From Aurantiochytrium sp. KH105 (taxonomy: Eukaryota > Sar > Bigyra > Thraustochytrida > Thraustochytriidae): DNA of 64,000 nt. How positions within the stretch are numbered: the first letter of the stretch is position 1; each line of letters opens with the position of its first letter. Of the stretch, positions 1,120 to 16,296 are shown piece by piece. The stretch lies in assembly GCA_003116975.1 (NCBI GenBank), contig BGKB01000114.1, forward strand, positions 62,001 to 126,000, read 5' to 3'. The notes under the pieces are model-generated. The model had not been told where the DNA came from. It ran no database searches and saw nothing but the letters and a program-made list of their open reading frames with translations. The translations under genes and the position numbers were made by a program.

Positions 1120-3435
1120 TCACTCGAGACCCCGAGGCGAAGATGTTGGCTCTGGTAAAGCATGAGCCTTCTTGCGCTGCCGTTCAAGTCGTAAGAGCGA
1201 TGCTTTGGTCCGGTTGTACTGTTGCTTGAGCGCAAATTTTGCAACCTGATCTGTCGTTTGCTGCAGCTGCGCATGGAGGCGGCCCACTTCTCCTCGAAGC
1301 TCGTCCATGTTGTTTCCGCCCTGCATGCTGCTATGCGATTCCATTTTCCGGTCGAGCTTGGCTTGTGCCTGTCGGTGCTCTTTTTCCAAGAGCTTCTGCC
1401 GTGCCTGCTGGGCCTTTTCGTGACGAGTCAACGGCTTTGGCTCCCGAATTTCAACCTGATGATCGACCCGAGCTGCATGCGCGGCCCGAGGCACAGGCTT
1501 GCTGTCCATCGGCTCTTGTTTACTCGCCCGTGCCCGAGCACGAGCCTTTTGTACGAGCATGACAATGTACTCCTCCTTTTGGTCATCTGGAACGTTGGGG
1601 TCTTGCCAAACACGTGTGCGGAGTGCGTCAAGGTCCACTTGCGGCCGGTCTTGCGTGGCCGGCTTTGTTTGTGAGGCGAGCGTCTTGTCTGCAATGCAAG
1701 TTTTACTTTTGGCTTTGCTTTGGGTTTGGTTTTGGCTTTTGAGTTGGGTCTGGCGTTGGCTTTGTAGCTCGGGTTCGATAGTCTTGGGCGGAGGTTTCAA
1801 TTTTCGTTCAGTCTTGGACTTTGGAGGCTCAGAACTTAGTGGTGGTGCTTTAGCCGCCGCGTCTGCCTCCTTGCGCGCACGCTCTTGAGCTTCAAATTGC
1901 AGACGATTCATTCGCTCACGCTGACGAGATCCAAGCTGCTGACGCGCCAAGTCCAGCTTGCGAAGAGCCCCAATCGAAAGTTTCTTTCGCGCCACGTTTT
2001 CAGCCTGACGACGCTTTTTGTCCTTTGCCGCAAGAGCTTTCTTTTGGCTCGCGGCGCGAGCAACATTGTCAAAGCTGCCATCGCGCGCATGGAAGCGCGA
2101 AGGAGCTGACCCCCATCCAGGTCCTTGTTCCGGAGGTTTCTGCTGCTGTTTCGCCTTGCGCTGGCGAGCAAGCATTGTCACATCAACAGGTGGCAAATTT
2201 TGTCGCGTGGTGACTCCACCCGAAACCCAGCGAGTTTCCGTCTCGGGTTGATCCTGACCATCCATGATGCACGAGTGACGAATGGTGTTGAGTGAATGCT
2301 CGGTGTCCTTGCTTGAAGGCGAAACTGTAGCGATGATCACTGTACGACTCTTTGTGTCGGCGTCTTCAACAAAGGATGGGCGCAGGAGATGCGTGAGCTT
2401 GCTTTGACGGTAGGGGATATAGTCTGCTTGTTTGGCACGCGCGCGAATGCACTCTTTAAGCTTCATGAGCGAACTGTTGATTTGAGCGCTTTCCTTTCGG
2501 CGCTGGGCATCATGCTCTGCCGAGTCGATGCGATGCTCGCTGCCAGCAAGATCCACCATAGTCAAGGCGTTTCCGTTTTCCATTTCAACGCGACAGATTG
2601 CATGCGAGCGCGAAGACTGATCGTGGACGCCAGTGGCCGCGGTGGCGCGTACGCTGCAGGCAAACTTGATGCAGTCGTGCAGTTCTTGTGGCGATGACAC
2701 TTCGACTTGCACCGCGGGAAAAGTCATGACGTCGCCATTGGGACACGTAAGAAGCTGCAACTTATGATTGTCATTGAGCGAATCGGCACAAGTATCTCCC
2801 GTGAGCTCCACAAATGAGATCCATGCGTGCTGCACGGCAGGTCCCTCCACATGATTGGCAGCCGCCTCGAAGAGACTCCATGCTGCGCGATAGTAAATGT
2901 GCGACATTGTGTACGTTTTGCCCGATCCCGTCTGCCCGTACATGAGTACCGTACCATTTCCACCTTGTCGCACAAGATTAACCAGGGGCTGGACCACCTC
3001 GGTGAAGACAAGATCACTTTCATCCTTCTCAGAGAAGACTTTGGTGAATTTGAAGCGATGATTATTCAGATACCGGCCTTTCATGTCGGCTTCCATGCGA
3101 GCATCGTGAATGTACAGGTCGCCGTTCACCTTGTCACACGAGATTACATCGAACTCCTTTTGTTCGAGCTCGTGCGCAAAGATGGGTCGCTTTCGAACAA
3201 AAACTCGAACAACCTGATCATCCGGGCCTTCGTGCACGTTACTCATCTCTGCGCCTTGCGACGTCAACTCTTCAGAAGCTGTCGCAAGACCATGCTTTTC
3301 CCGAAACTGCGCAATGCCTTCCTTGAACGCTGCGCGGTTCTCGCGCCGGGAGGTGCGCTTGTCCACGTTGCGAATAATCGACTCTGCTGCGCCCCTGTGC
3401 GTCGTAAAGCAACACGATGTTGTCCGTAAGCCCAT
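1120..3435 (-). CDS. Kinesin-13-type motor protein
   Basis: A 771-residue kinesin with an N-terminal neck of ~70 residues and the motor domain at about residues 74-390. Catalytic motifs are intact: P-loop GQTGSGKT (167-174), switch I SSRSH (274-278) and switch II DLAGSE (295-300). Features typical of kinesin-13 (KIF2/MCAK) are the opening VRVFVRKRP, the YLNNHRFKF segment and the SLMKLKECIRA helix. Kinesin-13 proteins depolymerise microtubule ends in spindles and at ciliary tips rather than walking. After the motor comes a ~380-residue basic, Q/K/R-rich tail with predicted coiled coil (LRGEVGRLHAQLQQTTDQV near the end). The start is ATG 3433-3435; a second in-frame ATG at residue 64 is a possible shorter start. 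The gene is divergent from the giant pseudo-kinesin gene across ~1.4 kb. Confidence 0.9.
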   Translation of the reverse strand: MGLRTTSCCFTTHRGAAESIIRNVDKRTSRRENRAAFKEGIAQFREKHGLATASEELTSQGAEMSNVHEGPDDQVVRVFVRKRPIFAHELEQKEFDVISCDKVNGDLYIHDARMEADMKGRYLNNHRFKFTKVFSEKDESDLVFTEVVQPLVNLVRQGGNGTVLMYGQTGSGKTYTMSHIYYRAAWSLFEAAANHVEGPAVQHAWISFVELTGDTCADSLNDNHKLQLLTCPNGDVMTFPAVQVEVSSPQELHDCIKFACSVRATAATGVHDQSSRSHAICRVEMENGNALTMVDLAGSEHRIDSAEHDAQRRKESAQINSSLMKLKECIRARAKQADYIPYRQSKLTHLLRPSFVEDADTKSRTVIIATVSPSSKDTEHSLNTIRHSCIMDGQDQPETETRWVSGGVTTRQNLPPVDVTMLARQRKAKQQQKPPEQGPGWGSAPSRFHARDGSFDNVARAASQKKALAAKDKKRRQAENVARKKLSIGALRKLDLARQQLGSRQRERMNRLQFEAQERARKEADAAAKAPPLSSEPPKSKTERKLKPPPKTIEPELQSQRQTQLKSQNQTQSKAKSKTCIADKTLASQTKPATQDRPQVDLDALRTRVWQDPNVPDDQKEEYIVMLVQKARARARASKQEPMDSKPVPRAAHAARVDHQVEIREPKPLTRHEKAQQARQKLLEKEHRQAQAKLDRKMESHSSMQGGNNMDELRGEVGRLHAQLQQTTDQVAKFALKQQYNRTKASLLRLERQRKKAHALPEPTSSPRGLE

Positions 3436-4881: not shown

Positions 4882-7800
4882 ATGGCTTCGACCGCGTCCG
4901 AGGATGTGGGCGCAGACGATCTGAGCGCAGAAGAGGTGGAGTCGGATGCTTCAAACCCGCAAGAAACGTTCTCTCCGCCTCCGCCAATGCCGAGCAGTCC
5001 GGTCTCGCCTCCACCAGGGAACCTATCCGCGACAAATGTCGAAGAGCAGGATCCCACGCTCGCAGATGCTGATGACGAGGAGGAGGAGGACGAAGACTAC
5101 GAACAAGATTTCGAAGATAGCGACCACTTCGATGGTGATGCGGAGAACGATACTATTGCGCTGAATGATGAGACTCTTGGCGAAACGCAGAGCAGTGAGC
5201 CTGAGAGTGGAAGCGCGGCAGACTCCGTCCACGAGGACTTGCTCGACGCATCAGAAGGTGAAGGTGAAGATATGCTTGAAGACTTACAAAGCCCTCCAGC
5301 GGTTGCCAGCAATGATGTGCATATCCTCTCTCCCCAGCCAACCGGTCCTCAAGGTCATGCGTCTAAAGAAGCCAACGCCGACGCGACCTTTTCAAACGTC
5401 ACTGGGATGGACGACGTGGACGAGCAGGATGACGCGGAGAGCTCATGGCCGATTGAGGGTTCCGAAATGATTGACTTGGAAGGTGATCAAGCTGCGACAA
5501 GCAATGGCATTCTCAGTGAGGAAAGTGGAAGAGTTCACATCGATGACCCTGAGGATTTATCAAGCAATCAAGGTCTCAATGACATAGCAATGGATCAAAC
5601 TGCTATCGGACACACCGAAGACTTGACAAGCGACCAGGCTACGGAGTCTTCAAAGGATTCGCCGAGTGCTGAAGCCGTCAATCTACAGGACAATTCTCTG
5701 TTCGATCAAGCCGACGAAGACACCAAGGACTCGCCTATGGGCCAAATCACTGATTCCTTTTTACATTCAGCGAGCAAGGATGCTTTGGAGGACGAGCAAG
5801 CAATCGAGGAGCTTGAAGATCTACCGAGCGACCAAGGTATGGAAGATTTCAAAAGTTCTTTGATGCATCAAGTGAATCTCGGCATCAACTCTGAAGAGTT
5901 GTCCACCGACCATGCTACGGAGTCCCCAAAGGACTCGCCGGGCGTCGAAGCCGTCGATCTTCTGGACGGCTCTCTGTTTGATGATCAAGCCAACGAAGAA
6001 CCCAAGGACTCGCCTCTGGGTCACATCACGGATTCTCTTTTACTTTCACCGAGTAAGGTAGCTTCGGAGGACGATCAAGCGATTGGGGAGCTCGAAGATC
6101 TTCCAAGCGACCGACACATGAATGACTCTAGAAGTTCTTTGATGGATCAAGCGAACCTCGGCAACAACACCGAAGAGTTGTCATCCGATCAGGCTACGGA
6201 AATCCCCAAGGGCTCGCCCAGTGCTGAAGCCGTCGATCTTCATGACGATTCTTCAATCGATCAAGCTGACGAAGACCCCAAGGACTCGCCCTCAGGCCAC
6301 GTCACTGATTACCTTCCAGCTTCACCAAGCAAGGAAGCTTCGGAGGACGATCAAGCGGTGAGGGAGCTCGAAGGTCTACCAAGCGACCAAGGCATGGCTG
6401 ACCCTGAAGGATCTTTGACGAATCAAGCGAACCTCAGCAACAACACCGAAGAGTTGTCATCCGATCATGCTACGGAAATCCCCAAGGGCTCGCCCAGTGC
6501 TGAAGCCGTCGATCTTCAGGACAGATTTCTGCTTGTTCAAGCTGACAAACCCCCCAAGGACTCGCCCATGGGCCAAGTGACTGATTCTCCTTTGAATGCA
6601 CCGAGCGGGCAAGCTTTGGATGGTCTTGATGAATCGCTGAATGATGAATCAAGTAGAGCAAGCAAAGAAATCAATTCTGGAGTCAATCTTGGGGACTCAA
6701 TGCGTGAGGAAGGTGCGAGGATGGACGCCGCATCCAGCATGGAAAAAATCGAAGATCTCGAGGTCGACAGCGAACGTGCGTCAGGTGAACAGACCGCAAT
6801 AATGGACGATGCAACAAGCGGCGGTGCGCTTTCAAGTGAAACAGCTACAGATGAAGCAAATGTGGGATTTACATCGATGCTTGACGCGTATGATGCCCAA
6901 CACGATGCGGACACAATGCGGAGTCGTTTGGCCGAGGACGAGACATCAGGGTCGAGCTCCGAAGTCCTATTGCCCGAACCAGATCAAGCGAAATTGCCGA
7001 TCGGGAATGGAGTTGAATCCCCATCCTCAGAATTCGGTAAAAGTCAATCAAGCCTTGAGATATCTCCGAGTAGGGACCACGCAAGTGCAAATGAACTCGC
7101 TGATACGACCAGTCTTCATTCGTCTGGGGCAAGGGCAGAGCTCTCGACATCTAAAATGGAGGTTGGAGAACTTGAAGCGTCGAGCCCTGGCGCCATGTCT
7201 GAGAATGGCAGATCGCCCAACATTATGTCCGCATCGTCTTCCTCAAGGTTATCAGATGCATTTGAAAGTGGAAATGACCCGCTGTTACCTCTCGATCTGG
7301 AACAGCTCCAGAGTGAAGCGAGATTTTCTGCTGGTGAGATGCGCTCGCCGTTTGAGTCTATGCTTGCAGCAGAGCATGTTGCGCGCGGAGACAGGCGAAA
7401 GAACAAGTCATTCACATCGCAAAGTCCAGAGTCGCAGTCATCGTCGCCACGCCGCACCAAAGGCCGATTCGGGCACAGTGGAAGTTTGGCTGGGAGCCGC
7501 ACCTCGAGCCCTTCGCGGAGACCATTCGCCTACTCTCCCGCGGGCAGATCACGCACTCGTGGGGACCCTCCAAGCAGCGCGGCCAGCTCACCATTGAGTG
7601 ACGTCTCGGATGCCCAAAAGAAAGAAATTATTGCAGCCGTCCGTGCTGCTGTCGAGCGAACACACTCAAAACTTTATGACGCGTTTCTCGTCATGGACCA
7701 CACGCAAAAGGGATGCTTGAATCGCGAAGAGTTATTGCGCGGGCTGCGGGCACTCGGTCTCGGTCTGGACGATGCCGTCATGCGCGAGTTTGCCAAGTCT

Positions 7801-10800
7801 GTCGATGTGAATGGGGATGGTGTGGTCACCTTTCAAGAGTTCTTCCGCACATTTGAAACCTCGCGCATCGACCCAAGCAAGCAGACGTGGACGCCACCAA
7901 GTCCCGTCAAGGGCTCATTTTTTGCTTCGGTACGAAGCGATGAGGTAGAAAGCGATGAAGGCGTCACGAAGAAAGAAGACGACGACGAAGAGGATGACGA
8001 TGAGGAGGCGCCGGAAAAGGAAGAAGATGGAGACGGAGAGGGGGATGGCGATGATGATTGGCTCGTGCGCAAGGAGGACGTGAAGCTGGCAAGTGCAATG
8101 CGCAGCCGTATCGCTCACGAGGATGATGACTTTGACCTGATCGAGTCTTGGACAAAGACGCCTCGGCGCAAGGCCAATCTACGATGCGCACCTTCGCGTG
8201 AAGTTGCATACATGAGTGTTCTTCGCGTGACAATCCACCAGGCGGACCTCGCCGCGAGCTCCGACGTCTGTGTGCGTTGCTCCGTGGGCGACGAAATGCA
8301 GCGCACCGAACTTGAAGAAGCAACTTCGCACCCCGTGTGGAACGAAGACTTCATTTTTGGCGCACACGAGGAAGGGCTCCCTCCGGAGGGCTCTCTCCAT
8401 GTGCGGCTGCAGTGCGACCCTGATGTAGGCCCGCAAGAGTGGGATCTTCCGTTTTGGGAACTCTTGTATTTCGACGAGACTGACGTGACCGTCCGCGACG
8501 ATGAAGTGTCTCTGCGCAAGTGGATTGACGGCCCGCGTCACAAGCTCGAAATTTCTCTTGTTCTTGGCACTGAAAAGATGGAAGACGTGAGGCGTCTTGC
8601 TGCACTCCAAGCTGGGCCTATCGACCGCGCAGCGCTCTGGCTTGACAAAGCAGCGATTGCCGAGCCCTTGTCCTTCGCGGACTCCAAGAGCGGCGCGCCT
8701 CTGTCTCCTGCGTCTACAAGCTCTGTTTCGAGACGACCTGCTTTGGGCCCCGGTAGCGAAAAGGACCAGCAGATGCTGGAAACCATTGAAGACCTTCGCG
8801 CGCAAATCTCCGAAATGCGTGAGTCGGTCACAGAGGAGGCGAGGCGGCGCCAGGAAGCAGAAGAGAGATCCGCAGTTTCGGCCAAACAGATGGAAGATCT
8901 CGAGAAGCAACGCCAACGTGACGCGGAACGCTTCCAGTATCAGATGCGCGAGCAACAAGCACGAGAAGACGAAATGCGCACAGAGATGCAGCTGCTGCAA
9001 ATGAAGCAGTCTTCAGGCGTGAAAGCAGATGAGCGCGTCGTCAAGCTTGAACAATCGATCCGCGAACTTTACGCCGATCTTGATCAGCGCAACAGCGAGA
9101 TTTCGAACGCAACAGAGGCCGCTGCTGCTGCTCGCATGGAGAGGGAGGATTGGAAAGCTCGCGTGGAAGAGCTGCAGGTCCAACTTCGGCAGACACAAGC
9201 GCGATACCGTGCCAAGAGTATGGACAGTACCGAGGACGCCCGCGCCGAAGACACGAAAAGCACGGGGCCAGCCACAGACGGCGCCGAAATTGACCGCCTC
9301 GTTGACACGATTGCCAAGCTAAATCGCGTCATTAGCGAACTTCGCGAGGCCGAGCGACGCGCTCAGGCACAACTTCGAGCCTCGGAAGACCGAATTCGTG
9401 AGCAAACTGCAGATCTGGGTCAACTGGCATCCGAGAATGAGATGCAGGCGCGTAAAATCGCTAGCTTCGAAATGGACAGTCGACGTCAGGTTGCCGAGCT
9501 TCGTCAAGCGGTTGCAGAGAAGGCGCGACTGGTGAAAAACTTGGAGGAAGCCGAGCAGCAGCTCGCGGCTTCCGATGAAGCCGTGGCCAAGGCTCGTCAG
9601 GAGCGAAAGGATGCAGAGGATCGCTGTGTTAGCATGGACGCTCGCGCCGAGCTGCTTCAAGCTCAGCTCAGCGAGGCCGCGAACAAGAATCTCGAGCTTT
9701 CGAGCGAGTTAGCCGAGGTTCGAAAGCTACGCGCGGCCCAACAACGGTCAACGTACCTGCGCCCCGACGCAGGTCTCGTGTGTCGGCACGCCAAAGCGCA
9801 GACGCGCATCTTGCGTGAGAGCGTCTATCGCATTCGCGCCGAGGTGGAGCAAATGAAGGACGCTGCCGCAGACGTTCTCGCCCAATGGGACTCGTATGTG
9901 CAGTTAAGACGCGCAAAACGTCAAGAGCTTGCTTCAAAGCCTTTAACAAATACGGCGGATCTGTCCCTCGTGCGCGCCAAGGGCATGTCTCAAGCTGAAG
10001 ATCCTAGCACAGTCAACAAGCGGCTTGGTCCCGTGCGTGCCCCCGTAGCGCCTGGACAGGTTTCGGGCCTGGCGCGAAGACTCCGCTTGGAACGCTTGCG
10101 CCGGCGAAATCTGCACAAGTCTCGCATGGGCTTTGGCGAAAAGCGGGTGCGACGTATCTGCTCAGTGTTCCACACGCCAGCTCACGTGGAAGATGCCTCG
10201 TCGCCTTCGCGATCTCTCGCCATGACTGGCGATGACGCACAAACAGACGACAGCCTTCGCGTGGAACCTATACTTGCGTCCGCAGAGGTCATGGTGCAGA
10301 GCGATAATTCGCGTCGTTACTTTGGATTCGATGAGGTTGTGTATGTCAAAGATATGGCTCCTAGCGACGCGGACGTGTTGGCGGCTGATCCTCGTCTTGG
10401 GAGCCAGAACGGTATTCGCGCGCAAGTCTCGCCGATTGTTGACGCTCTCTTTGACGGGGATCGGGCCGTGGTGGCATCTTCGGGCCCTGCCTCTGGAGCG
10501 ACCACAAATAGCATCATAAGTGCTATTTTTGACGTGATTGGCAGTTTGGCAGCCAATCTAAAGAGCGAAGAAAAAGTAGACGCGGCTGCCGTGCTTCCAC
10601 GCGTTAGCATTTCGTGTGTACATATACAGAACAGCAGGGTCTTTGATTTGCTCGCTTCAAATGAAATGGAGACACGATCGCCTCTGCGTCACTTTCCCGA
10701 GCTCTCGATCGACCGTGCCGCAGCGCGTGCCACAGGGCGCATCGACCTCGAGAGCGCTGGCCTGAGCGTCGTCGAGGTGAAGACACGGTATGAAGCCGCT

Positions 10801-12648
10801 CTCGTAGCATCCATGGGCTCTGGAAACCATCACAATATGCTCGGATCACTCCCCATGGCACGAAATACTCACACGACTGGCGTAGAAGGTAGCAGTAGCA
10901 GTGAGACTGCCTTTTTGCTGTTCACGGTGTGGGTCGAAATGGGCGACGATGCGTACGCTAACGAAGAAGAAGAAGGAGCGTTTTCAGCCGACCTGGTCAC
11001 GGGCAAGATGCACATATTGGAGGTTGCCTCGACAGGCCGCGCGGCTTTTGCAGACGAGACCATGGAAGGAATTGTCAAGGTTGTAAATGCCATGTCGCAT
11101 CGGCAAGATCTTGACGCAGAAGGGGGCTCGGGGGCCTCGCCAGGAACTTTGATGCGGACCTTTAGTTCGAATGTCGTGCTTGGCATACTGCGCGACTGCC
11201 TCGACGAAGAAAGTCTTGGCATTGCAACGCGCTCAGAGTGGCCGCAGAGACTCGAGAAGAGCAAGACGCATTATATGACTGGCGATGACGAGATGGGCAC
11301 TTATGAGCGCGACTCATGCATGTTTCACCTTCTTGTGCACCCATCGCTTACGGTGTGCAATCCTCGATCGAGTGAGCTCCTCACTGCGTTGCACTTCGCA
11401 CAGCGTATTCGCACAATGCCACTAAGCTCGCCGAACCTTGAAACTTCGTCATTCCCTGCTTCAGCCTCTCCCTCGTCGTCTTCACCGGGTCAGCTATCAC
11501 GACTGCAAGAAGCAGGTACAGCGGACAGACTTGCCGTCAGGTCTCCGGACCGAGGACCACCCCCGCACGTGCACAGTGTACCATTGGCGGTACTTGCGGC
11601 AAGTGAGGAAAGAGAGGTCCAGGATTATCGTCAGCAAGACACTTCGAACGAGTCTGTCGATAACGCCCGGAACAGACCGCGCACCTCGCACAAGCCACCA
11701 ATGTCGAAGCGTCGAGCTAAGCGGGCGTCGTACTCTGAGCAGGTCCGGCCGAGGTCAAGGCATCGTGTTCGTGAAGAAGACGAGGAAGAGGAAGACGAGG
11801 AAGGGAGCGAAGCCGAGATTAACGATCTCGTTGCGTCGCTGGTGGCGGGCCAAAACGTAAACTTGGATGCGCTCGACGCTCTCGAGCTCGAAGAGCACGC
11901 CAACCTTTCGAAGCAATTTGACGCGCTGCGAACCGAGGTGGCACGTAGTACACCCGGGGGTCGCAGCGCAAAGCGACGCCCCGCCAGCGTCAGCGCCAGC
12001 AACCGCAGACTCCGTACGCCCGGCTCAAGGAGTGTCACGAACAGGGCTCGAGAAGAAGGCTCGCGCTCTCATGCGGTCTCGAGTCGCAAGGAAACAGGCC
12101 GTCGAAAATCTCGCCGAGATCCGGCAGCAGGAACCCCTCGGGAAACCGAGCGGGCGCGGCATCGCGTTTTGGAGGCTCTGCTTGGGCAGACAGAGGGCAT
12201 GTTGCACGGTCTGTTTCTGTCAATGGACACTCGACGTTCTGGTGTGCTGTCGCGTGCTGATTTTCGGCGTGGTATGCATCGGGTTGACCCGTCTCTTTCC
12301 AAGCGGGACTTGGAGCTTTTCGTGGACAGCATGGACAGCAAGCGAGACGGATATATTGACTTTCAAGAGTTTTTCCGCGTGTTGGGCGACGCCAAAACCG
12401 GCAATCAACATTCGCTGTTTTTGCGCGATAAACGCGCCGAGAAGATTGCGATGCGCGAGCGGCGGCGCATTCGCGAGAGACTTTCGCCAGAAGCGGCGGC
12501 CAAGGCCGAGTGGTTCCCGCGTCAGGCACGTCAGCAGCCGAGTGGTCAACGTGCAAGCTCGTTCGACGCGGAACACACAGAGGAGGAATTGCGCAGGTTT
12601 CTCGGGTACCGTCCGCCTGTTCGTCTTGATAAGATTTTGCGGCAGTGA
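4882..12648 (+). CDS. Giant acidic-repeat / EF-hand / C2 / coiled-coil protein with a degenerate kinesin motor domain
   Basis: A single-exon ORF of 2588 residues from the first ATG (4882; the frame is open 11 codons further upstream from TTG 4849). Order of parts: acidic N-terminus with four ~93-residue repeats (about 247-573); an EF-hand pair near 939 and 975 (the second loop, DVNGDGVVTFQEF, is canonical); a D/E-rich stretch (1030-1060); a C2-like domain (about 1110-1232); a long coiled coil (about 1293-1620); a basic linker; a kinesin-motor-like domain (about 1790-2183); an acidic/basic linker; and a C-terminal EF-hand pair (DSKRDGYIDFQEF near 2485). In the motor-like part the P-loop position reads SGPASGATT, with alanine (1873) where catalytic lysine is expected, and switch I (NTHTTG) and switch II (LEVASTGR) are also altered, so ATPase activity is unlikely. 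A calcium-responsive microtubule or ciliary scaffold is a reasonable guess, not shown. Confidence 0.85.
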   Translation: MASTASEDVGADDLSAEEVESDASNPQETFSPPPPMPSSPVSPPPGNLSATNVEEQDPTLADADDEEEEDEDYEQDFEDSDHFDGDAENDTIALNDETLGETQSSEPESGSAADSVHEDLLDASEGEGEDMLEDLQSPPAVASNDVHILSPQPTGPQGHASKEANADATFSNVTGMDDVDEQDDAESSWPIEGSEMIDLEGDQAATSNGILSEESGRVHIDDPEDLSSNQGLNDIAMDQTAIGHTEDLTSDQATESSKDSPSAEAVNLQDNSLFDQADEDTKDSPMGQITDSFLHSASKDALEDEQAIEELEDLPSDQGMEDFKSSLMHQVNLGINSEELSTDHATESPKDSPGVEAVDLLDGSLFDDQANEEPKDSPLGHITDSLLLSPSKVASEDDQAIGELEDLPSDRHMNDSRSSLMDQANLGNNTEELSSDQATEIPKGSPSAEAVDLHDDSSIDQADEDPKDSPSGHVTDYLPASPSKEASEDDQAVRELEGLPSDQGMADPEGSLTNQANLSNNTEELSSDHATEIPKGSPSAEAVDLQDRFLLVQADKPPKDSPMGQVTDSPLNAPSGQALDGLDESLNDESSRASKEINSGVNLGDSMREEGARMDAASSMEKIEDLEVDSERASGEQTAIMDDATSGGALSSETATDEANVGFTSMLDAYDAQHDADTMRSRLAEDETSGSSSEVLLPEPDQAKLPIGNGVESPSSEFGKSQSSLEISPSRDHASANELADTTSLHSSGARAELSTSKMEVGELEASSPGAMSENGRSPNIMSASSSSRLSDAFESGNDPLLPLDLEQLQSEARFSAGEMRSPFESMLAAEHVARGDRRKNKSFTSQSPESQSSSPRRTKGRFGHSGSLAGSRTSSPSRRPFAYSPAGRSRTRGDPPSSAASSPLSDVSDAQKKEIIAAVRAAVERTHSKLYDAFLVMDHTQKGCLNREELLRGLRALGLGLDDAVMREFAKSVDVNGDGVVTFQEFFRTFETSRIDPSKQTWTPPSPVKGSFFASVRSDEVESDEGVTKKEDDDEEDDDEEAPEKEEDGDGEGDGDDDWLVRKEDVKLASAMRSRIAHEDDDFDLIESWTKTPRRKANLRCAPSREVAYMSVLRVTIHQADLAASSDVCVRCSVGDEMQRTELEEATSHPVWNEDFIFGAHEEGLPPEGSLHVRLQCDPDVGPQEWDLPFWELLYFDETDVTVRDDEVSLRKWIDGPRHKLEISLVLGTEKMEDVRRLAALQAGPIDRAALWLDKAAIAEPLSFADSKSGAPLSPASTSSVSRRPALGPGSEKDQQMLETIEDLRAQISEMRESVTEEARRRQEAEERSAVSAKQMEDLEKQRQRDAERFQYQMREQQAREDEMRTEMQLLQMKQSSGVKADERVVKLEQSIRELYADLDQRNSEISNATEAAAAARMEREDWKARVEELQVQLRQTQARYRAKSMDSTEDARAEDTKSTGPATDGAEIDRLVDTIAKLNRVISELREAERRAQAQLRASEDRIREQTADLGQLASENEMQARKIASFEMDSRRQVAELRQAVAEKARLVKNLEEAEQQLAASDEAVAKARQERKDAEDRCVSMDARAELLQAQLSEAANKNLELSSELAEVRKLRAAQQRSTYLRPDAGLVCRHAKAQTRILRESVYRIRAEVEQMKDAAADVLAQWDSYVQLRRAKRQELASKPLTNTADLSLVRAKGMSQAEDPSTVNKRLGPVRAPVAPGQVSGLARRLRLERLRRRNLHKSRMGFGEKRVRRICSVFHTPAHVEDASSPSRSLAMTGDDAQTDDSLRVEPILASAEVMVQSDNSRRYFGFDEVVYVKDMAPSDADVLAADPRLGSQNGIRAQVSPIVDALFDGDRAVVASSGPASGATTNSIISAIFDVIGSLAANLKSEEKVDAAAVLPRVSISCVHIQNSRVFDLLASNEMETRSPLRHFPELSIDRAAARATGRIDLESAGLSVVEVKTRYEAALVASMGSGNHHNMLGSLPMARNTHTTGVEGSSSSETAFLLFTVWVEMGDDAYANEEEEGAFSADLVTGKMHILEVASTGRAAFADETMEGIVKVVNAMSHRQDLDAEGGSGASPGTLMRTFSSNVVLGILRDCLDEESLGIATRSEWPQRLEKSKTHYMTGDDEMGTYERDSCMFHLLVHPSLTVCNPRSSELLTALHFAQRIRTMPLSSPNLETSSFPASASPSSSSPGQLSRLQEAGTADRLAVRSPDRGPPPHVHSVPLAVLAASEEREVQDYRQQDTSNESVDNARNRPRTSHKPPMSKRRAKRASYSEQVRPRSRHRVREEDEEEEDEEGSEAEINDLVASLVAGQNVNLDALDALELEEHANLSKQFDALRTEVARSTPGGRSAKRRPASVSASNRRLRTPGSRSVTNRAREEGSRSHAVSSRKETGRRKSRRDPAAGTPRETERARHRVLEALLGQTEGMLHGLFLSMDTRRSGVLSRADFRRGMHRVDPSLSKRDLELFVDSMDSKRDGYIDFQEFFRVLGDAKTGNQHSLFLRDKRAEKIAMRERRRIRERLSPEAAAKAEWFPRQARQQPSGQRASSFDAEHTEEELRRFLGYRPPVRLDKILRQ
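5620..6610 (+). repeat. Four ~93-codon tandem coding repeats
   Basis: Within the giant gene the nucleotide phrase GAAGCCGTC.ATCT recurs with its GCCGTC core at 5674, 5950, 6229 and 6505. The spacings are 276, 279 and 276 bp, all multiples of three. Each unit carries the protein signatures SDQATE, KDSPSAEAV, QAxExPKDSP, GxxTDS and ELExLPSDQ. The copies differ by substitutions and single-codon indels only, so the reading frame has been kept. Confidence 0.9.
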
Positions 12649-12722
12649 GCGCTTGCCGTGTCGTCAGCAGCAAAATATATTTGGCCTACCAACGCGTAAG
12701 GTAAATGAAGGAGTTGTATGGT

Positions 12723-13959
12723 TTATGGATCTGATTTGGGGATTGATCGTCGTGTTAAAGAGTCGACAAGCGAGCGTGCAGAGTCTGCACTAAAAACGCG
12801 TGCGACATATGAAGGCAGGTTGATAGGTTGGCCTGCTTTAGCTACTGATGCACGCGCTTCAGACAGGAATGAAGAGAGTCCCGATGGTTTTGCAACGACG
12901 ATGACGATACCGCCGGCGAGAGTTGCCAATGTGAGAGCAGCCCATGCAAAGGCTGCAGATCTGGGACGCAAGGCGGAACCTGCAAGACGTTGTTGCTTTT
13001 GTTGCTGCTGCTGTTCTTGTAGTATTTTTTTCAGCTTGGATTGTTTGGTGGCGAGCTTTTGAATGCAATGTGATTTGAGGGGCATGAGAAGACGCTGTTC
13101 GTCTTGGACGATGACTTGGTGAATTTTTCCTCTGAAGAAGTAGCGAACCCAGAGCAGCTTCTCTTCGCCTGGGGCGGCATCGTAGAGACCAGAGATGAGA
13201 TAATGCTTTGGCTCATTTCCGGGAATGACCAGTTTTGATTTTTCGACGGCGCACTGCAGTTGCCGAGTGACGTTTTGCACCCACTTGCAGGTGGCGAGGT
13301 CTTCAAGTCGGTTCGTCTCGATGATGTCGCGCGCCCCGTAGACGGCGTCGTCGATGACGAGACCGCCACGGCTCAGTTCGGTACGGCGCTTGATGTCAAA
13401 GGTAAGCTGTGTGACGCCCGTTAGTCTTGAGAAGGTCCATGCAGCAAGGATACCTCTTCATCAAAAGAAAAGAAGAGGAAGACATCGTGTAAATCACGTA
13501 CCCGCATGAGCTCAACTGCTTGCTCTGCATCTTTCTTTTTCATTTCTCCTAGTTCGGCATATTGCGCCTGGGTTTTCATCAGAATTGCGAAATGTACGTT
13601 AGTAGATCCGAGTGCGATATGAAGAATTGTGCGTCTGTGTTGGCGCAGCCAGCTCTAGCCATGAAATAAAGAGCTAGCCAAGTTCGTCGACAGAAATAGC
13701 ATCCAAAATAACGTACGTCCTGAGCATCAACATGCCCATTGAGCATATCATATGCTGCGCGCTGCGTGGGATCGATGAGAACCTCATAGGCACGGGCGAC
13801 GAGGGAAAACATGTCCTGAAAGTCTTCTCCTTGCGGATTGCTTGCGACGACATTCTTGTCTGGGTGATACCTGCGTGCGAGCGTTCGGTACGCCTTTCTG
13901 ATATCTGCACTCGAGGCCGCGACCTCGACGCCCAGCACGCCGTAAAGGCAGGGCGCCAT
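12723..13959 (-). CDS. DNAJC11-like J-domain protein with C-terminal membrane anchor (3 exons)
   Basis: Spliced model: exon 1 13959-13717, exon 2 13567-13502, exon 3 13406-12723. The introns (13716-13568 and 13501-13407) begin GTACGT and end CAG, all phase 0, giving 330 residues. Residues 1-75 form a J domain with the HPD triad at 32-34. Residues ~115-215, including GLYDAAPGEEK and RGKIHQVIVQDE, match the C-terminal DUF3395-type domain of DNAJC11, a mitochondrial outer-membrane/MICOS-associated J protein. A Q-rich patch and one hydrophobic segment (about 253-275) follow. The long beta-barrel-like middle of animal and plant DNAJC11 is missing, so this is a short version. It probably acts as a membrane-tethered Hsp70 co-chaperone; mitochondrial location is inferred. 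An in-frame upstream ATG exists near 14184, but the one at 13959 places the J domain at the N-terminus as usual. Confidence 0.8.
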
Positions 13960-14011
13960 TGTGTCGGTCTCCTGTCTTCTCCGTTTCCTTGCTCTCCCTC
14001 CTCCTGCCCTC

Positions 14012-14016
14012 TCTCG

Positions 14017-14051
<35 letters not shown>

Positions 14052-14052
14052 A
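14012..14052. repeat. (CGTG)n microsatellite in the 5' leader of the J-protein gene
   Basis: About nine tandem copies of the tetranucleotide GTGC lie some 60-90 bp upstream of the J-protein start codon. On the minus strand they read GCAC. They account for the ACTHARTHARTH-like artefact peptides in that strand. Confidence 0.9.
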
Positions 14053-14577
14053 CGAAGCGCTCGCAGTCGCCGTCCCGGGGCTCGTTCTCGTCGCGCTCTT
14101 CGCGCCTGCCGACGCCGAAAGGTCCCGCTCGTCAGGCCGCTCAGGCTGTGCGTCTGCGCACTGCCCGAGGGGCGCGGCAGGCAACCATCCCCAGCGAGTG
14201 CGCGCAGGCGTGCCCAGGCGAGCGGTCTCGCTGCTGCGCCGAGCACGCTCGCCGCGCGCTGGGGCATGAAACCGATTCTCTGTCCACGGGATACTATGCG
14301 CTCTCAGCGTCTTTCACCCAAAGGAAGAGAAGAGAAAAGCACGAAAACGAGCGTGCGCTAGGCGCTCCTACCCGTTGCTACGATTTACTCCGCCTCAACC
14401 CAGCCCGCTGCTGCCGCGCGCGAACCCTCTTCTCCGGCAGTTCTGGGACGCGGGGGTCGTCGTTCGCGCGCGCGCCATGCACGCGCTGGCCGCGCGCGCT
14501 CGTGCTCGGGGCGGCGGCTTCTCCGTCCTCGTGTCCTTCCCAGCCAGCTTCTGTCTCGCTATCTTGCGAGCAGCGCC

Positions 14578-14615
14578 GAGCAGAGCAGAGCAGAGCAGAG
14601 CAGAGCAGCAGAGCG
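14578..14615 (+). repeat. (GAGCA)n pentanucleotide tract upstream of the MIT-like gene
   Basis: Six near-perfect tandem GAGCA units followed by a GCAGAGC remnant lie in the presumed 5' leader or core promoter. Similar sense-orientation tracts precede other genes in this window. Confidence 0.9.
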
Positions 14616-14688
14616 CTTCTACAATTCCCTGCGTCGCGGCGCGGGCGGCGGCAGGGGCGCTTGCGCGGCACGCTGCGCGGGCGGCGGC

Positions 14689-15687
14689 ATGAGCTCCGCG
14701 GTGGACGCGGCGATCGAGCGCGCGGCGCGCGCGCAGGAGCTCGCGGACGGGGCGGCGTGGGCGGAGGCGTCGCGGCTGTACGCGCGCGCGGCGCAGGACC
14801 TGCGCGGGCTGCTGCGCTCGGGGCGCGTCAAGGACGAGCGCAGCCGCGCGTTCCTGGGCGAGCAGTGCGACGACTTCCAGCGGCAGGCCGACCTCACGGC
14901 GCGCAAGGCGCAGGCGCGCCGCGAGAAGGACCTCGTCGCGCGCGCGAGGCAGCTGCGCGGCCTGGACGCCAAGCCCAAGTCCGAGGCCGAGGTCTCGCGC
15001 GCAGAGGACGACCTCCGCGCGAGGCTCGCCAAGCTCCAGGCCCCGAGCGCGCCCGCGGCCTCACTCGGGGACCTGGAGGCCCGCCTGGCCAAGCTCGGGC
15101 CCTCGCAGTTTGCGCAGGAACATGCTGCTGCTGCTGCCGCGGAGCAAGAGGACCAGGATCCCCGCGTGAAGAAGGCGCTCGAAGACGCTGAAGCACGTGG
15201 CGCCGTCGACATTGCTGCAGACGACCCCGACCTGGAAATGCTGCTCCGCAAGCTAGACAGCGACGAGAACGTCACGGATGAAGCGCTGCAGGCACTTCTT
15301 GCGGGTGTCGATCACAGCGGGGTCGGTCCTGGGACCGAGGTCTCGGCGGCCGACGATGACGAGGTCGCTCTCCTTATGCGGCAGGCTCGCGACTTTGCGC
15401 GTGTCGGGGGCGTGCCACTAATCGAGGACGATGGCGAAGGGCCCAAAGACTCTGCAGTCGTCGCGAAGAAGGGCAAGAAGAAGACGAAGGCACGGAATGG
15501 CGCGGACAGCGACGAGGATGATGAGTCCAGCGACGAGTCCGACTCGTCAGACGATGATGACAGTAGTAGCGACGACAGTGATGCTTCGTATGATGTGTCG
15601 GGGCGAAGGGTGAAGGCGTCCAAGGCCAAGAAGGGAGCGAAGAAGAAGGTAAAGAAAAAAAGAGGGAGTCGTTGGGGTCTCTTTTAG
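14689..15687 (+). CDS. MIT-like domain protein with acidic/serine-rich tail
   Basis: A 332-residue single-exon protein from ATG 14689. Residues ~1-75 form an Ala-rich three-helix pattern (AIERAARAQELADG...ARAAQDLRGLL...RSRAFLGEQCDDFQRQADLTARK) that resembles MIT domains, which bind ESCRT-III tails and also occur in VPS4, spastin and related proteins. The middle has two short amphipathic repeats ending in LRARLAKL or LEARLAKL (about 110 and 133). The tail contains a DSDEDDESSDESDSSDDDD acidic block (about 275-300) and finishes with a basic KKxKKKVKKKRGSRWGLF end. A role in ESCRT-linked membrane remodelling or abscission is possible. The MIT assignment rests on pattern only, and no enzymatic domain is visible. 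An AATAAA signal follows the stop. Confidence 0.7.
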   Translation: MSSAVDAAIERAARAQELADGAAWAEASRLYARAAQDLRGLLRSGRVKDERSRAFLGEQCDDFQRQADLTARKAQARREKDLVARARQLRGLDAKPKSEAEVSRAEDDLRARLAKLQAPSAPAASLGDLEARLAKLGPSQFAQEHAAAAAAEQEDQDPRVKKALEDAEARGAVDIAADDPDLEMLLRKLDSDENVTDEALQALLAGVDHSGVGPGTEVSAADDDEVALLMRQARDFARVGGVPLIEDDGEGPKDSAVVAKKGKKKTKARNGADSDEDDESSDESDSSDDDDSSSDDSDASYDVSGRRVKASKAKKGAKKKVKKKRGSRWGLF

Positions 15688-15730
15688 TTTTTGCCCACAA
15701 TTGCAAGAAAAGGCGCGGAAACAGAACATC

Positions 15731-15736
15731 AATAAA
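15731..15736 (+). terminator. Probable poly(A) signal of the MIT-like gene
   Basis: A canonical AATAAA hexamer begins 43 bp after the stop codon of the MIT-like gene, in the convergent spacer. Confidence 0.5.
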
Positions 15737-16296
15737 AGAGTTGGGGGCAAAGAGGACGTGGAGATGGTGTCTTTCATATGTTTATGTGAAGACCCGTGCA
15801 CGATACGACAGGCCAATCAAGCCGAAGACTGCATGTGCTTGCTTGTTCACGATTTTACCGTTCTCGACCCTCAAGAACAGAGTTTACCTGCCCATTTGGT
15901 ATTTTTTTCTTTTCTAGGGAGGTGGGCCCGCGAGATGGTGCGATCAAATCTATTCCCGAAATGAGCCTTTTGAGTTGCAAGATTGAGAATGAATTTTGTT
16001 TGTGTTGATATTATTATGATGATCCTCTTTGCCGATTTCGAGCTGTGCGTTCGATCGCAGACAAGCTCTGCAGTGACATTTGCGTGCTGTAAAAAATCAA
16101 CTGTAAAGGAAAGGCGACGCACCTACACATTTTCTATGCCGTCAACAACTCGGAAGTCGTCTGTAAAGCAATCGAACTATTTCTTCATGGACCGCAGCTA
16201 CAGGTGCAAAAGGTGCTATGGAGACATGACATCTGCTACAAACTGCGCCTGGAGAGCTCACTCGTATAGGAAGCAAGCAGACAGGGAGCACTGGCA
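15737..16296. other. Convergent intergenic spacer
   Basis: This is AT-richer DNA between the 3' ends of the MIT-like gene (+) and the tudor-like gene (-). Small ORFs in it (such as 15983-16381 +) overlap the next gene antisense and show no domain. I see no RNA gene or notable repeat here. Confidence 0.4.

Follow-up and report, generated by a model that had tools for sequence, protein, structure and literature searches.

A stretch of 64,000 nucleotides from the thraustochytrid Aurantiochytrium sp. KH105 (positions 62,001-126,000 of contig BGKB01000114.1, or C114, in an assembly of 76 Mb; hereafter the window) carries an uninterrupted, intron-free open reading frame (ORF) for a large EF-hand/C2 protein in which a segment is supported by profile comparison as a derivative of a kinesin head. 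This head has lost the catalytic motifs of the nucleotide site and its sequence is constrained between haplotypes, and we consider it a pseudokinesin head, retained by selection, that probably serves as a nucleotide-independent docking module. The features that carry this reading are as follows.

4882..12648 (coding 4882-12645), forward strand: whole ORF, 2588 amino acids plus stop, ATG start (translation)
10249..11445, forward strand: kinesin-head-derived domain, residues 1790-2188, its C-terminal third by position (own-genome kinesin profile hidden Markov model, hhalign)
10261..10827, forward strand: best-supported part of the head, residues 1794-1982, with FGFDEVV, the P-loop equivalent and VSISCVHIQNSRVFDLLA (own-genome profile, sub-profiles)
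10483..10506, forward strand: P-loop equivalent GPASGATT, residues 1868-1875, replacing GxxxxGK[ST] (alignment to comparison heads)
10882..10911, forward strand: switch I equivalent VEGSSSSETA, replacing NxxSSRSH (alignment; a part of modest significance)
11020..11040, forward strand: switch II equivalent EVASTGR, replacing DLAGSER (alignment to comparison heads)

Evidence for a kinesin-derived head

The comparison heads were drawn from the same genome. A six-frame Pfam kinesin search returned 126 matches, the ORF head not among them, and these fall mostly into near-identical pairs, as in an unphased diploid. From this list 64 places were taken (8 + 56), usually one per allele pair, leaving aside others such as C143:186328, C18:447041 and C20:592594 with their partners; the copies L002, L004, L006, L008 and L062 were then dropped, together with L066, which is split over frames. 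The 58 remaining heads, all distinct from the ORF head, were built into an own-genome kinesin profile.

Against residues 1760-2219 this profile scores 18.5 bits (single-target E = 3.9e-8), whereas 1000 shuffled sequences yield 11.2 at most, and its best domain (17.3 bits) spans residues 1794-1982. Likewise, hhalign matches the segment to kinesin heads at 95.6% (E = 1.2e-8), with P-loop, DLL region, switch I and switch II aligned in order, whereas 30 shuffles of the segment remain at or below 7.2%. When seven stretches of the ORF were compared in the same way, the one from residue 1601, which holds most of the core, gave 93.9% and the other six at most 1.3%. Finally, among the 404 six-frame stretches of at least 80 amino acids in the window, the kinesin profile ranks the ORF second (15.4 bits), behind a neighbouring true kinesin (302 bits) and ahead of a third place at 6.5 bits. 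A preliminary description of this DNA had recognized the motif order of a kinesin head, and that order is borne out both by these scores and by the motifs themselves, which lie where they were said to lie: YFGFDEVV at residue 1813, SSGPASGATT at 1866, LGSLPMARN at 1987, HILEVASTGR at 2044 and LHFAQRIR at 2170.

The resemblance is unevenly spread along the head. Sub-profiles of the N-terminal part with the P-loop, of the middle, and of everything after the P-loop part each gave scores that were reached by none of 2000 shuffles, while the score for the switch I-II region was reached by 20 of 2000. Scored against the profile of the whole head, residues 1900-2060 are distinct by themselves (12.6 bits versus 4.5 for the best shuffle), and the pieces 1985-2060 and 2060-2200 fall under their best shuffle. 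Taken together, residues 1794-1982 are thus well supported as being of kinesin origin, most strongly after the P-loop, and for the switch region the support is fair.

A number of results weigh against the identification of a kinesin head. Neither the protein nor the segment has a Pfam kinesin match (PF00225) at E values up to 10, and the segment has no PDB sequence match in phmmer at the same limit. The piece 1776-1900, taken alone with the whole-head profile, scores 5.1 bits versus 5.2 for the best of 1000 shuffles. Towards the C-terminus, the loop12-alpha6 sub-profile score is reached by 45 of 2000 shuffles, and that of alpha4-alpha6, the C-terminal third with the microtubule-binding face, by 267 of 2000, which is not significant. 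In a free MAFFT alignment, 22 of 57 conserved kinesin positions are kept, a count that one of four other stretches of the ORF also attains and that lies within the range of 60 shuffles (mean 18.2, maximum 24); since this count does not separate the head from shuffles, the gap-penalized profile scores were used instead. The structure prediction that the preliminary description had proposed as a check, a fold other than kinesin being taken as refutation, was run with AlphaFold2 on the single sequence of residues 1776-2200 and is uninformative (mean predicted local distance difference test, pLDDT, 29.9). Because the C-terminal scores are weak, the last third of the head (about residues 2060-2190) can be called kinesin by position only. 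Of the head first proposed at about residues 1780-2190, the N-terminal half to two thirds is homologous to kinesins, and the C-terminal third does not rise above shuffles.

Nucleotide site, constraint and homologues

The P-loop consensus GxxxxGK[ST] is kept in all 58 comparison heads, which were picked by Pfam match, so that intact heads were favoured and cryptic dead heads could not enter; the ORF head has GPASGATT at this place. Neither NxxSSRSH of switch I nor DLAGxE of switch II is found in it, and the alignment with the 58 heads sets EGSSETAF opposite the former and EVASTGR opposite the latter. Replaced in this way are the Gly-Lys of the P-loop, the Arg and His of switch I, and the Asp, Gly and Glu of switch II, and the whole stretch of residues 1849-1893 is free of lysine. 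The earlier claim that both switch motifs are degraded therefore holds. The accompanying claim that the P-loop lysine had become Ala1873 holds for the loss of the lysine and not for the residue, since that assignment needs a one-residue gap; in an ungapped alignment Thr1874 takes the lysine position and Ala1873 that of the preceding invariant glycine. From what is established for P-loop nucleoside triphosphatases, loss of the P-loop lysine along with both switches makes ATP hydrolysis by the ORF head very unlikely. ATP binding would presumably be lost as well, and the head is not to be classed among kinesin motors.

The head is nevertheless under selection and has no sign of decay. A second-haplotype allele on contig C16 encodes 2586 amino acids in an intact frame, and between the two haplotypes the head (residues 1791-2190) differs by 16 silent and five replacing changes, a ratio of nonsynonymous to synonymous polymorphism (pN/pS) of 0.10. 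For comparison, pN/pS is 0.06 in the C2 domain, 0.07 in the coil (residues 1301-1625), 0.23 in the linkers on either side of the head, and 0.48 in the acidic N-terminal part (residues 1-920), the weakest constraint of the parts measured; the first EF-hand pair (residues 921-1005) has no replacing and six silent differences, and the second (residues 2446-2520) none and two. These figures come from one allele pair, which tempers them. The intact frame on both haplotypes, together with the low pN/pS, argues that the head is kept by selection and is not part of a pseudogene.

Beyond this genome, protein searches with residues 1640-2220 and 1800-2190 (E up to 10) found Hondaea fermentalgiana only, whose homologue is 98% identical over the searched region and 100% identical over residues 1800-2190. 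A search with residues 921-1300 found Hondaea and, in addition, two matches that cover just 15-19% of the query, in proteins listed with EF-hands in Pfam. Each search scored about 8000 candidates of 0.55-1.75 times the query length, so that orthologues that are shorter or have diverged strongly may have escaped; among those candidates, no head homologue with a readable P-loop was found outside Hondaea. The preliminary description would have counted an intact GxxxxGK[ST] at this position in orthologues as refuting its reading, and with the Hondaea head homologue as the one recovered, none was seen. The deposited Hondaea gene model, FCC1311_039942, lacks a counterpart of residues 567-962, including the first loop of the first EF-hand pair. 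Its long match to the ORF ends at residue 2188 and resumes, by eye, for more of the C-terminal linker, before the model departs from the ORF frame ahead of the second EF-hand pair and continues in downstream frames (window positions 13260-15874). The deposited protein thereby loses the second EF-hand pair, and the model, which spans 4882-15874, looks mis-spliced and fused. Within the genome, parts of three large C2/EF-hand proteins (L072, L076 and L078, none complete) contain no frame above 3.5 bits with the kinesin profile. L078 and L072 are large multi-C2 proteins, L078 with EF-hands as well, and the parts examined are without a kinesin head.

The surrounding protein and other kinesins of the genome

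From N- to C-terminus the protein consists of an acidic N-terminal part, an EF-hand pair, a C2 domain, a probable coil, the kinesin-derived head and a second EF-hand pair. The features outside the head, and the neighbouring gene, are the following.

5612..6620, forward strand: tandem repeat of 276 bases (92 codons, in-frame), 3.6 copies, in the acidic N-terminal region (Tandem Repeats Finder)
7666..7848, forward strand: first EF-hand pair, loops DHTQKGCLNREE (residue 939) and DVNGDGVVTFQE (residue 975) (Pfam EF-hand_7, 69.9 bits for the whole protein)
8221..8403, forward strand: C2 domain, marginal (Pfam C2, 24.6 bits versus a cut-off of 22)
8869..9729, forward strand: probable coiled coil in a stretch poor in proline (composition; heptad periodicity of 3.5 residues, modest and uneven)
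12193..12396, forward strand: second EF-hand pair, loops DTRRSGVLSRAD (residue 2449) and DSKRDGYIDFQE (residue 2485) (Pfam EF-hand)
1120..3435, reverse strand: neighbouring kinesin with intact motor and P-loop, divergently transcribed (Pfam Kinesin, 220 bits)

The description of a 2588-residue EF-hand/C2 protein was accurate in its length, and both EF-hand pairs and the C2 domain exceed their Pfam cut-offs. With paired EF-hands and liganding loops, the protein belongs among the EF-hand calcium-binding proteins. Two of the four EF loops are canonical or nearly so by eye: in the first pair DVNGDGVVTFQE is canonical and DHTQKGCLNREE is not, and in the second DSKRDGYIDFQE is near canonical. One such loop in each pair makes calcium binding by both pairs plausible. 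The second pair (residues 2438-2499) also matches another EF-hand protein of the same genome. Inspection of the C2 domain by eye does not show the aspartates that usually bind calcium in its first loop, and the domain has weak C2 matches to other places in the genome. The long coiled coil of the preliminary description retains its proline-poor composition in its favour, with a heptad signal that is modest and uneven.

The neighbouring kinesin, whose best PDB matches are the kinesin-13s Klp10A and KIF2C, lies head-to-head with the dead-head gene at a distance of about 1.4 kb, and the two genes also stand together on C16 of the other haplotype. Elsewhere in the genome, locus L061:1081-3600 encodes another divergent kinesin, with P-loop GLSGSGKT and switch I NHQSTRGH; by eye it has a long insert after the F-x-F strand, placed like the insert in the dead head, and farther along a stretch that looks FHA-like. 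Viral contigs were also searched for kinesins, and none was confirmed. Among the genome-contig matches listed, L079, on a contig of 3.3 kb from a metagenome-assembled genome labelled Verrucomicrobiaceae, is a kinesin in fragments that seems to contain introns, and is probably eukaryotic contamination.

Proposed function, precedents and alternatives

A kinesin motor head, of unspecified class, would have lost its nucleotide-binding motifs and kept enough sequence to be maintained. A head without nucleotide chemistry cannot step, so a docking surface is the simplest use left to it, and the dead head most likely docks, independently of nucleotide, on microtubules or tubulin, or on a partner that recognizes a kinesin head. 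The coil would oligomerize the protein, and the two EF-hand pairs and the C2 domain could couple it to calcium or membranes. In support of such docking, Pro2121, Arg2123 and Lys2126 line up in the MAFFT alignment with the loop 12/alpha5 motif PYRxSK, but this part is not significant by profile. PYRxSK is a microtubule-contact element.

Kinesin heads that have ceased to be motors are known from several systems. The motor homology domains of yeast Vik1 and Cik1 are described in one report as non-catalytic, kinesin-head-like and a "foothold" for Kar3 (PMC4338441); another, which differs on microtubule contact, has Kar3 holding the microtubule and Vik1 in a state that "remains tethered" (PMC3544905). 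The likeness to the ORF head lies in the non-catalytic, kinesin-head-like domain, and the difference in that Vik1 and Cik1 are partners of the kinesin-14 Kar3, a pairing for which the ORF protein offers no such evidence. Vik1 and Cik1 are also far shorter than the ORF protein and have neither EF-hands nor C2. Similarly, Costal-2 (Cos2) may have no motor activity and bind microtubules, apparently with no need of ATP (PMC2867816), the signalling protein KIF26A "lacks motor activity" (PMC10585591), and plants, like many other lineages, are reported to be devoid of kinesin-11 (PMC1434745). Costal-2 and KIF26A, which with VAB-8 make up the kinesin-11 group, count among the known non-catalytic heads, and in this they are like the ORF head. 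The proteins of this group come from animals and have different tails. PseudoKinesin-21, an orphan group of kinesin-like heads that has been given a name, is reported as so far unique to fungi (PMC5076506). Going by its description, it is like the ORF head in being kinesin-like and differs in being fungal. EF-hands, for their part, are coupled to kinesins in KCBP, which has the EF-hand partner KIC. In a further report, TbKINX1B is linked to the EF-hand protein BILBO1 and has intact motifs and measured ATPase activity (PMC8906236). In both of these cases, unlike the ORF protein, a distinct partner contributes the EF-hands. The open-access literature searched yielded no single protein that unites EF-hands, C2, coil and a dead kinesin head. 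The earlier statement that no named family has this plan thus stands for the combination and not for the dead head: within that literature, non-catalytic kinesin heads are known already, and the four-part combination appears new.

The yeast precedent (PMC4338441) raises the question of whether the upstream coil pairs with an active kinesin, the ORF head being the second head of a heterodimer. The order of coil then head is that of C-terminal-motor kinesins, a neck pattern of kinesin-14 type occurs in seven of the 58 comparison heads, so that possible partners exist, and residues 1731-1745, just upstream of the head, are weakly neck-like (15 of 2000 shuffles as good). However, the neck match does not reach significance when the whole protein is scanned (single-target E = 0.065; -4.6 bits for the best domain), and a kinesin-14 head profile gives 8.9 bits versus 17.3-18.5 for the all-kinesin profile, values from 7 and 58 heads that are not strictly comparable; kinesin-14 membership is accordingly not supported. 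Moreover, between the probable coil and the neck-like stretch lie some 115 residues, prolines among them, and 400 residues follow the head, unlike Vik1. We regard such a heterodimer as unlikely.

A similarly low probability is given to reuse of the degenerate fold as a protein-protein interaction module off microtubules, by analogy with the signalling roles of KIF26A, which PMC10585591 describes as acting there without motor activity. This would fit a head whose C-terminal, microtubule-facing third is unrecognizable by profile while the preceding parts are recognizable, but the MAFFT alignment keeps the loop-12 Pro/Arg/Lys in position, even though that region is not significant. A chance or very remote resemblance, to another P-loop fold or an unrelated one, would account for the missing Pfam and PDB matches, the uninformative AlphaFold2 model and the conserved-position count. 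It is nonetheless highly improbable in view of profile scores matched by none of 1000 and none of 2000 shuffles, of two separate parts that are significant and in the right order, and of the hhalign match.

The docking module is thus the reading that we favour for the pseudokinesin head. A more elaborate possibility, which we put forward tentatively and hold to be rather doubtful, is that the protein is a calcium-responsive, lineage-specific pseudokinesin, in which the dead head flanked by EF-hands and C2 would be a calcium-switched, fixed anchor of microtubules, basal body or zoospore cytoskeleton, with no motor step; it would then be an independent origin of a non-motor kinesin outside fungi and animals. 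The public annotation names the protein by its EF-hand domain only, and the Pfam kinesin model misses the head, so that pseudokinesins may be undercounted. Taken as a whole, the findings indicate that a kinesin head in a stramenopile can lose its nucleotide chemistry and yet stay under selection, and that a motor may in this way have become a static adaptor, possibly one regulated by calcium, in parallel with the pseudokinases.
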